Source of the DNA: Actinomycetota bacterium | Lineage (GTDB): Bacteria > Actinomycetota > Actinomycetes > Nanopelagicales > Nanopelagicaceae | Assembly (NCBI GenBank): GCA_026392935.1 | Contig: JAPLBE010000004.1 | Location: 1 to 64,000, forward strand | Direction of reading: 5' to 3' | DNA length: 64,000 nt | Shown here: positions 37,113 to 41,805 of the stretch, one piece after another | Numbering within the stretch: the first letter of the stretch is position 1 | Layout of the letters: the number at the start of each line of letters is the position of its first letter | Notes under the pieces: model-generated | The model's database searches: none | Told to the model about the DNA's origin: nothing | The model's input: only the letters and a program-made list of their open reading frames with translations | Position numbers and translations under genes: made by a program

Positions 37113-39072
37113 TTGACTTGAGCCCCTCAGAAATTAACTTCATTACATTTGGATCAGCCAGTGTTGTCGCATCTCCGACTGCGCGATTCTCAGCAACATC
37201 TTTAAGTAAACGGCGCATGATTTTGCCGCTACGAGTTTTTGGAAGTTCATTGACGACCATAATCTGACGTGGTCTAGCAATTGCGCCTATTTCTTTAGTT
37301 ACATGGTTTCGCAATTCTTTAACGAGCTCATCGCCACTCGCATGTTCTACGCCACCACGAAGAATTACGAAAGCAACAATTCCTTGGCCCGTAAGGGCAT
37401 CGGCTGCACCAACAACTGCCGCTTCTGCAATCGCTTCGTGAGAAACCAGCGCGGATTCAACTTCTGTTGTAGAAATTCGGTGACCCGAAACATTCATCAC
37501 ATCATCAACCCGACCGAGTAACCAAATAGCTCCATCGTCATCTAACTTTGCACCGTCACCGGCGAAGTAAATTCCTTCAAAGCGAGACCAATATGTTTCT
37601 TTGTAACGCTCGGCTTCTCCCCACACGCCACGCAACATTGATGGCCATGGTTGATCAAGAATGAGATAACCACCATGCCCATTTGGAACAGCTACTCCTT
37701 TTTCATCTACAACTTTTGCGCTGATACCTGGCAGTGGTCGCATGGCAGAGCCTGGTTTTGTCGCAGTGACACCTGGCAGTGGAGAAATCATGATCGCTCC
37801 AGTTTCGGTTTGCCACCATGTATCAACAATTGGGCAATTTCCTCCACCTATAACTTGGCGGTACCACATCCACGCTTCTGGATTAATTGGCTCCCCAACC
37901 GAACCGAGCAAACGTAAAGTTGAAAGATTGAATTTGTTTGGAAATTCATCTCCCCATTTCATCCATGTGCGAATCAGTGTTGGAGCTGTATACAAGATTG
38001 TGACTCCATATTTTTCGATAATTTCAAACATACGTCCTTTGTGCGGGCTGTCAGGAGTTCCCTCATAGATAACTTGGGTTGCACCATTTATGAGAGGTCC
38101 GTACACCATGTATGAATGACCCGTAATCCAGCCAACATCTGCTGTACACCAATAAACATCAGTTTTAGGTTTGATATCAAAAACAACTCTGTGAGTGTAT
38201 GCAACTTGTGTCAGGTAACCACCAGTTGTATGGAAAATTCCCTTTGGTTTAGCGGTAGTTCCGGATGTGTAGAGAATAAACAACGGGTGTTCGCTGTCGA
38301 AGAATTCGGGGGTATGAGTTGAGTTTTGGCGGTCAACAAGATCGTGCCACCAGATATCTCTGTCTTCGACCCATGCGGTCTCTTGTCCTGTGCGCTTTAC
38401 AACTAAAACTTTTGAAACATTTGTTGAACCCTTGAGCGCTTCATCCACTGCTGGCTTGAGAGCAAAAGCAGCACCTTTTCTAAAGCCACCATCTGCTGTG
38501 ATAACAAGTGTTGCATCTGCATCTTGAATTCGAGAGAGAAGTGCGTCGGCAGAAAATCCACCGAAAACCACAGAATGAATTGCTCCAATGCGGGCACATG
38601 CAAGCATTGCAACTACTGCCTCAGGAATAAGTGGCATGTAAATCGCAACTCGATCTTCAGATTTGATTCCTATCTCTGTCAGAGCGTTAGCAGCTTTGCT
38701 CACATCTGTAAGTAGTTGTGCGTAAGAGATTGTCTTTGCATCTCCGGGCTCACCCTCAAAATTAAACGCGATCCGATCTCCATGTCCCTCGGCTACATGG
38801 CGATCGAGTGCGTTGACAGTCGCATTGATTTTTCCGCCTACAAACCATTGGGCAAATGGAGCGTTCCATTCGAGAGCTTTATCCCACTTCTTCTCCCACT
38901 TGAGAGTGCTTGCTTGCTCTTCCCAAAAAGCAATTCGATCATTATCGGCATGTGTGTAGAGAGAACTATTTGCATTCGCTTGTGCCGAAAATTCAGCGGA
39001 TGGCACAAAAGTTCTATTCTCACTCGACAAATTTTCAATCGAGTCATTCTGTGAATTCGAGATATTGCTCAT
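37096..39072 (-). CDS. acs: Acetyl-CoA synthetase
   Basis: YTSGTTAKPKGIFHTTGGYL, WWQTETGAIMISPLPG, PKTRSGKIMRRLLK; start MSNISNSQND at 39072 preferred. Confidence 0.95.
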   Translation of the reverse strand: MSNISNSQNDSIENLSSENRTFVPSAEFSAQANANSSLYTHADNDRIAFWEEQASTLKWEKKWDKALEWNAPFAQWFVGGKINATVNALDRHVAEGHGDRIAFNFEGEPGDAKTISYAQLLTDVSKAANALTEIGIKSEDRVAIYMPLIPEAVVAMLACARIGAIHSVVFGGFSADALLSRIQDADATLVITADGGFRKGAAFALKPAVDEALKGSTNVSKVLVVKRTGQETAWVEDRDIWWHDLVDRQNSTHTPEFFDSEHPLFILYTSGTTAKPKGIFHTTGGYLTQVAYTHRVVFDIKPKTDVYWCTADVGWITGHSYMVYGPLINGATQVIYEGTPDSPHKGRMFEIIEKYGVTILYTAPTLIRTWMKWGDEFPNKFNLSTLRLLGSVGEPINPEAWMWYRQVIGGGNCPIVDTWWQTETGAIMISPLPGVTATKPGSAMRPLPGISAKVVDEKGVAVPNGHGGYLILDQPWPSMLRGVWGEAERYKETYWSRFEGIYFAGDGAKLDDDGAIWLLGRVDDVMNVSGHRISTTEVESALVSHEAIAEAAVVGAADALTGQGIVAFVILRGGVEHASGDELVKELRNHVTKEIGAIARPRQIMVVNELPKTRSGKIMRRLLKDVAENRAVGDATTLADPNVMKLISEGLKSTKDED

Positions 39073-39204
39073 GCACACGAGATTACTGGCCACCAACGAA
39101 TATTTCTATAGCTTTATTATCAACAGCACTCACTTATTCATCCCTTTTCTGCTGCTAAGTGGCTAATCATTCGCACTTAACCAACCTCTCGCTAAAGGAG
39201 AAAT

Positions 39205-39306
39205 ATGACGATTGCAGCATTCATAACTATCTTGCTAAAGATCCTGAGCAACCCAGCCCTTATTGCCGGCTTGATTGCCTTCTTACAGAAAACTCTCCAC
39301 CCCTAA
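39205..39306 (+). CDS. Unannotated 33-aa hydrophobic peptide
   Basis: AAAGGAG SD 6 nt upstream of ATG; MTIAAFITILLKILSNPALIAGLIAFLQKTLHP; not in ORF track because of length. Confidence 0.6.
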   Translation: MTIAAFITILLKILSNPALIAGLIAFLQKTLHP

Positions 39307-39318
39307 GAGAGGTTCTTC

Positions 39319-39389
39319 CCACCTAGCCCCTGGGTAATGCGTGTGCCGATTTTTCTTACGCCGGGGTAGGTGGTTGGATTAGGCGTAAG
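39319..39389 (+). ncRNA. Candidate structured RNA (H-type pseudoknot or alternative hairpins)
   Basis: A=CCACCTAgCCCC (39319-39330) pairs A'=GGGGTAGGTGG (39363-39373); B=CTTACGCC (39355-39362) pairs B'=GGCGTAAG (39382-39389); order A-B-A'-B'. Confidence 0.45.
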
Positions 39390-39453
39390 CCTCACTTAGA
39401 CCCAATGGTGCGTCAGAGCGTTTACACCAGTTCTAGTCATTTGGGAGCATCAG

Positions 39454-40488
39454 ATGCCAATAGCAACCCCTGAAGTTTATGCAGCCATGTTGGACCGCGC
39501 TAAGGCTGGTTCATTTGCATATCCTGCAATCAACGTTTCATCATCACAAACAATTATCGGAGCTATTCGTGGATTCGCCGAAGCAGAGTCCGATGGAATT
39601 ATTCAATTTTCTTGGGGTGGAGCAGAGTACGCATCTGGCTCAACAGTTAAGCACATGGTCGATGGCGCAGTAGCGCTCGCAGAATTTACTCACGTTGTTG
39701 CAAAGAATTACAACGTCAACATTGGTATTCACACTGATCACTGTCCAAAAGAAAAGTTAGATGGATTTATGCGCCCACTTCTTGAATTTGGCGCACAGCG
39801 CGTTAAAGAGGGAAAGCAGCCACTGTTCAACTCACACATGTGGGACGGATCAGCAGTTGATATGCCAGAGAACATGAAGATTGCTCGCGAGCTACTTGAT
39901 AAGTCAGTTGCTGCAAAGACTGTTCTCGAAATCGAAATCGGCGTCGTCGGCGGAGAAGAAGATGGCGTCGAGGCAAAGCACGATGCCAAGCTTTACTCAA
40001 CTCCTGAAGATGCACTTCTTACAATCGAAACTCTTGGAACAGATGCGAATGCGCGCTACATGGTTGCTGCAACATTCGGAAACGTTCACGGTGTTTACAA
40101 GCCAGGAAACGTTGTCTTGCAGCCAAAGATTCTGCACACTCTTCAAGAGGCTGTCGCAAAGAAGCTTGGACTTCCTGCGGGCAGCAAGCCAATGGATCTC
40201 GTATTCCATGGTGGCTCTGGCTCACTTCTTTCAGAGATTCGTGAGTCACTTGATTACGGCGTAATCAAGATGAATATTGATACAGATACTCAGTATGCGT
40301 TTACACGTCCAGTTGTTGAGCACATGTTCAAGAACTACGACGGCGTTCTGAAAATTGATGGCGAAGTCGGAAATAAGAAGGCTTACGATCCACGCGCGTG
40401 GGGTAAGGCTGCTGAAGCTGGCATCGCTGCCCGCGTCGGCGTTGCTTGCGAAGATCTTCGTTCCACCGGAACATCACTACTAAAATAA
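39454..40488 (+). CDS. fba: Class II fructose-bisphosphate aldolase
   Basis: HTDHCPKEKLDGF, SHMWDGSAVDMPENM, EIEIGVVGGEEDGVE, VFHGGSGS. Confidence 0.95.
   Translation: MPIATPEVYAAMLDRAKAGSFAYPAINVSSSQTIIGAIRGFAEAESDGIIQFSWGGAEYASGSTVKHMVDGAVALAEFTHVVAKNYNVNIGIHTDHCPKEKLDGFMRPLLEFGAQRVKEGKQPLFNSHMWDGSAVDMPENMKIARELLDKSVAAKTVLEIEIGVVGGEEDGVEAKHDAKLYSTPEDALLTIETLGTDANARYMVAATFGNVHGVYKPGNVVLQPKILHTLQEAVAKKLGLPAGSKPMDLVFHGGSGSLLSEIRESLDYGVIKMNIDTDTQYAFTRPVVEHMFKNYDGVLKIDGEVGNKKAYDPRAWGKAAEAGIAARVGVACEDLRSTGTSLLK

Positions 40489-41805
<1,317 letters not shown>

Follow-up and report, generated by a model that had tools for sequence, protein, structure and literature searches.

Rfam orphan leader motifs and riboswitch candidates show a short conserved loop and strand before the Shine-Dalgarno sequence of an operon, covarying helices and a restricted taxonomic distribution, and the element located at 39367-39428 shares these traits, its covarying helices being candidates. 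It differs from them in its weak fold energy, in not being tied to one gene function and in having no Rfam match: among 4227 models, none matched at the gathering cut-off and only chance-level matches were found at E values up to 10. Intrinsic terminators resemble the region upstream of the core, which shows a GC-rich, terminator-like stem directly before a T-run in 62 of 107 relatives, where it presumably ends the small-ORF transcript. Unlike in these terminators, the T-run of the window (the whole 64-kb stretch of DNA that was analysed) is in the loop of a local hairpin, H1, and not after a stem; the window's clade shows no terminator-like stem, and the scan of the window found no intrinsic terminator on the forward strand. 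Long inverted repeats similar to two-way terminators, of the form AAAATCGCCAT...ATGGCGATTTT, are present upstream of the core in these 62 of 107 loci (e.g., L009 and L172) and absent from the window's clade. Finally, leaders that sequester the Shine-Dalgarno sequence are resembled by the copies of genus g31, where the Shine-Dalgarno of purA is predicted to be enclosed in a long helix, whereas hairpin H2 of the window ends 18 nt before the Shine-Dalgarno of fba and leaves it outside the element.

The arrangement acs, small ORF and fba is common to the window and its relatives, and the flanks are those reported in an earlier note on this DNA: a small hydrophobic ORF upstream and a gene encoding a class II fructose-bisphosphate aldolase downstream. 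The ORF, of 33 amino acids, has a good Shine-Dalgarno sequence upstream and no Pfam match. In nearly all relatives, including those without fba, a small hydrophobic ORF is found between acs and fba or purA. On balance, the element at 39367-39428 is best read as a structured 5' leader of the fba-purA-purD-purB transcription unit, because it is conserved family-wide at a fixed place, is present in a single copy, shows inner pairing above the null and persists when the first gene changes. The features of the locus are the following:

39205-39306, forward strand: small hydrophobic ORF of 33 amino acids (MTIAAFITILLKILSNPALIAGLIAFLQKTLHP), upstream neighbour
39319-39330, forward strand: left arm of stem 1 of the pseudoknot proposed earlier; its outer 7 bp are not conserved
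39327-39366, forward strand: local hairpin H1 with a T-rich loop, arms 39327-39337 with 39356-39366
39350-39354, forward strand: T-run, 20 nt upstream of GTGG, conserved in position
39367-39428, forward strand: family-wide conserved leader element, matched by covariance model R1 with 60.3 bits
39370-39388, forward strand: most conserved 5' strand, GTGGTTGGATTAGGCGTAA, predicted to be largely single-stranded up to GUAA
39371-39373 with 39402-39404, forward strand: candidate pseudoknot, a possible 3-bp contact of UGG with the CCA in the H2 loop
39385-39425, forward strand: hairpin H2, from the minimum-energy fold and covariation
39385-39390 with 39420-39425, forward strand: outer stem of H2, GUAAGC with GUUUAC, in the minimum-energy fold
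39391-39393 with 39416-39418, forward strand: CUC with GAG of H2, in the minimum-energy fold
39399-39401 with 39412-39414, forward strand: apical GAC with GUC of H2, from covariation
39402-39411, forward strand: loop of H2, CCAAUGGUGC
39443-39447, forward strand: Shine-Dalgarno GGGAG of fba, read from the sequence
39454-40488, forward strand: fba, class II fructose-bisphosphate aldolase (Pfam F_bP_aldolase), which heads the run fba-purA-purD-purB
40522-41805, forward strand: purA, directly 3' of the leader element in relatives without fba

The element shows the order GUGGUUGGAUUAGG-CGUAAGC, a hairpin with the CCAAUGRNGC loop and the closing arm UUUACACC, followed by the Shine-Dalgarno and fba. 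The consensus built from about 160 collected upstream regions is (T/A)AnGTGG(T/A)nGGAT-n3-5-CGTAAGCC, a variable segment, (G)nC-CCAAUGRNGC-GnC, a second variable segment and GAG-AU-UUACACC, then the Shine-Dalgarno and the ATG. In DNA searches, conservation beyond the nearest clade begins at about 39344 and continues into fba. Two candidates for the core were rejected: an anti-Shine-Dalgarno pairing of the CCCAA loop with UUGGG, which by eye is broken in the GTGAGAGG clade without a clear replacement, and a conserved short upstream reading frame, which shows in-frame stops in several clades.

With 39365-39450 as query, matches at E<=1, a lax cut-off, were found in 180 of the 296 genomes of the order: the weakest of them are due to chance, but several further genera of the family have unambiguous ones. 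With the covariance model, strong matches are confined to the same family, one per genome, and elsewhere in the class and phylum there are only weak matches, none above chance level. The window's own genome contains one strong copy, and a candidate for an extra copy was discarded as a weak match (E = 0.017) without similar surroundings. A 22-base pattern searched in 84,980 species genomes was found in 75 contigs, all of them actinobacterial records and mostly freshwater MAGs: 72 show it directly before fba, two are contig ends reading into fba, and one shows it before a gene encoding an FkbM methyltransferase. In genera without class II fba, the element is immediately followed by purA, the second gene of the fba-purA-purD-purB run, and one genome shows a second, different methyltransferase-like gene between the element and purA. 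Most genomes have fba attached to the element, those lacking it have purA, and in two cases the gene is one for a methyltransferase. Since the element is kept before purA or methyltransferase genes, it belongs to the locus or operon and not to the aldolase, which makes a riboswitch for fba that senses a glycolytic metabolite unlikely. The two methyltransferase-like genes located directly behind the element (L349:109-876 and L243:896-1807, in two genomes) look like insertions at the head of the operon. No match to phage DNA was found. Metagenome bins labelled as Bifidobacterium breve or Streptomyces griseus carry the freshwater-actinobacterial locus (L301, L324, L336, L343, L350 and L356), and these labels look wrong.

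The pairing of the element was analysed with a list of pairs drawn up partly by eye from the sequences before the tests. With this list, the structure-blind alignment contains 34 doubly changed cells against 10.7 in shuffles, none of the 500 shuffles being as high, and most of this signal is gone when the partner is slid by 1-3 columns. The model-fitted alignment, which leans towards structure, contains 105 doubly changed cells against 32. In the tree-aware simulation (structure-blind alignment, 107 sequences, 300 simulations), helices P1-P3 are 76% paired against 61 +/- 5%, with 0 of 300 as high. Tested by helix, P2 and P3 are each above the null (p = 0.007 for both), P3 shows two compensatory branch events against 0.13 (p = 0.007), and P1 alone is not above the tree-aware null (p = 0.18). 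Apical pair 34-45 of the manual alignment is standard in 100% of cases, with the types C-G, U-G, U-A and G-C, and the minimum-energy fold of 39319-39462 contains GUAAGC/GUUUAC and CUC/GAG. The UGG/CCA contact is 97.5% paired and shows a G-C to A-U exchange, and its pairing is not above the tree-aware null (p = 0.55).

Other analyses were negative: RNAalifold gave no consensus pairs on the seed alignment of 37 sequences, the core fold shows no extra stability against shuffles (mean z 0.11), the free-energy duplex test with arms swapped across clades gave p = 0.35, and the all-pairs tree-aware scan found no structural pair at E<1. The hairpin alone shows z = -0.8, its ends having been picked for complementarity. 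The results on a common RNA fold of this element are mixed: the pair counts and the tree-aware simulation of P1-P3 speak for it, and the RNAalifold, z-score, arm-swap and all-pairs results against it.

Copies in other genera show variants of this fold. Three of the four copies in genus g29 have the inner hairpin GUAAGC-CUUCG...CGAAG-AUUUAC as their predicted minimum-energy fold, and the fourth folds into a close variant. In genus g31, the folds of all six leaders have energies of -24 to -34 kcal/mol and pair the purA Shine-Dalgarno, the T-run arm being predicted to pair with the Shine-Dalgarno region. In these leaders (L257, L261, L270, L274, L276 and L278), the ribosome-binding site of purA would be masked by the long helix of GATTTCTCC... 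with its Shine-Dalgarno, suggesting translational control. Genera g29 and g32 have a reduced CCCAA loop or none.

Judged from these comparisons, the element is probably folded as an mRNA leader and probably tunes the expression of the operon. It would be transcribed together with the operon and could control the translation initiation or the stability of its mRNA. The GUGGnnGGAU strand and the CCAAUGRNGC loop may be presented to a protein or an RNA, or possibly to a ligand; alternatively, they may make a 3-bp contact with each other.

The main rival to the leader reading is a DNA-level promoter role of the upstream half. The conserved block would then be mainly DNA, a promoter or operator of the operon consisting of a T-run, 20-23 bp and GTGGnnGGAT, and the apparent hairpin would be secondary. 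The T-run is 20-23 nt from GTGG in 87 of 107 loci and keeps its distance even at loci without the terminator stem, the element persists when the downstream gene changes, and its upstream conserved bases are largely unpaired in the predicted folds, all of which fit a DNA element. Against it, the internal spacers vary by 5-9 nt: from GTAA to CCCAA there are 9-14 nt, and from CCCAA to TTAC about 15-24 nt, so that hairpin arms fit better than a promoter of fixed spacing. The pairing of P1-P3 exceeds the tree-aware null, and the g31 T-run arm that pairs with the Shine-Dalgarno region is sensible only within one RNA. Nor was a sigma-70-like promoter found in 39050-39500, and neither the window nor three relatives show a sigma-70 pair with hexamers 16-18 nt apart; the TTGGAT/TTAGAC promoter mentioned in the earlier note was not recovered by the consensus scan, and its second hexamer is not kept in relatives. 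A block acting mainly as DNA is somewhat unlikely.

The leader could, more specifically, represent a hitherto undescribed sensing class restricted to the freshwater Actinobacteria of the acI lineage: its CCAAUGRNGC loop would, together with the GUGGnnGGAU strand, form a pocket for a ligand or a protein and set the expression of an operon that joins glycolysis and purine synthesis. This reading is unlikely. It is quite improbable that the element is a true metabolite riboswitch, whose ligand would be connected with glycolysis or purine synthesis and which would act on the whole operon. The conserved loop and 5' strand with their possible contact, the leader position before fba or purA and the g31 form that buries the Shine-Dalgarno are consistent with it, but the element stays before unrelated methyltransferase genes, is restricted to one locus per genome and one family, shows a reduced or lost CCCAA loop in g29 and g32 and has no Rfam counterpart.

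The structure proposed in the earlier note, an H-type pseudoknot or two mutually exclusive hairpins, partly overlaps the leader element, and its stems are present in the window. Stem 1 consists of CCACCTA(g)CCCC at 39319-39330 with GGGGTAGGTGG at 39363-39373, and stem 2 of CTTACGCC at 39355-39362 with GGCGTAAG at 39382-39389; they are arranged as A-B-A'-B', with B and A' contiguous, a loop 1 of 24 nt and a loop 3 of 8 nt. Their co-occurrence, held to be of low probability, is indeed rare in dinucleotide shuffles of the 90 nt (0 of 3000 with two perfect stems, at least 7 and 8 bp long, that interlock), but comparable stems are found at three other sites of the window (about 1371, 6051 and 28931), so such a stem pair somewhere in the window is not rare. 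Taken alone, the region has a fold with little advantage over shuffles (z = -1.28; 19 of 200 equally good or better) and is not unusually stable.

In 20 distinct close relatives that can be aligned gap-free here, 53% of cells are paired in the outer seven positions of stem 1. Of the eight pairs of stem 2, two are lost without compensation, because its right arm is invariant and its left arm changes: one of them is kept in 11 of the 20 relatives and the other in one of the 20. Hairpin H1, which covers most of the region described in the earlier note and precedes the element, is paired in 96% of cells in the same relatives. Its innermost pair, 39337/39356, is A-U in six, U-A in nine and G-U in three, a compensation from A-U to U-A, and pairs 39330/39363 and 39331/39362 show C-G, U-A and U-G types; the window's own copy has two mismatches. 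By these substitutions, H1 is the predicted structure that replaces the pseudoknot, the left-arm bases of stem 2 being predicted to pair locally upstream instead, and the pseudoknot is a chance pairing of a single sequence that involves the invariant GGCGTAAG. That it works as a riboswitch, a small RNA or a 3' element of the small-ORF mRNA is very improbable: its stems are perfect in the window and rare in shuffles, and outer stem 1 belongs to the minimum-energy fold there, but close relatives neither keep nor compensate outer stem 1 or stem 2, and the competing hairpin H1 shows compensation. The claim of a regulatory leader of no known class upstream of fba finds support at 39367-39428 and not for the pseudoknot.

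Small genomes characterise the acI lineage (Planktophila, Nanopelagicus), which is widely considered one of the most abundant lineages of fresh water; the genomes of the family are mostly 1.2-2.2 Mb. The leader is uncatalogued and is found in these abundant freshwater Actinobacteria (Planktophila and relatives); in the literature, which was covered in part, there is no report of the element or of small RNAs in Planktophila. A single-copy leader kept family-wide despite the changing gene behind it is a compact target for the regulation of central metabolism, and the alignment and the covariance model make it directly testable.
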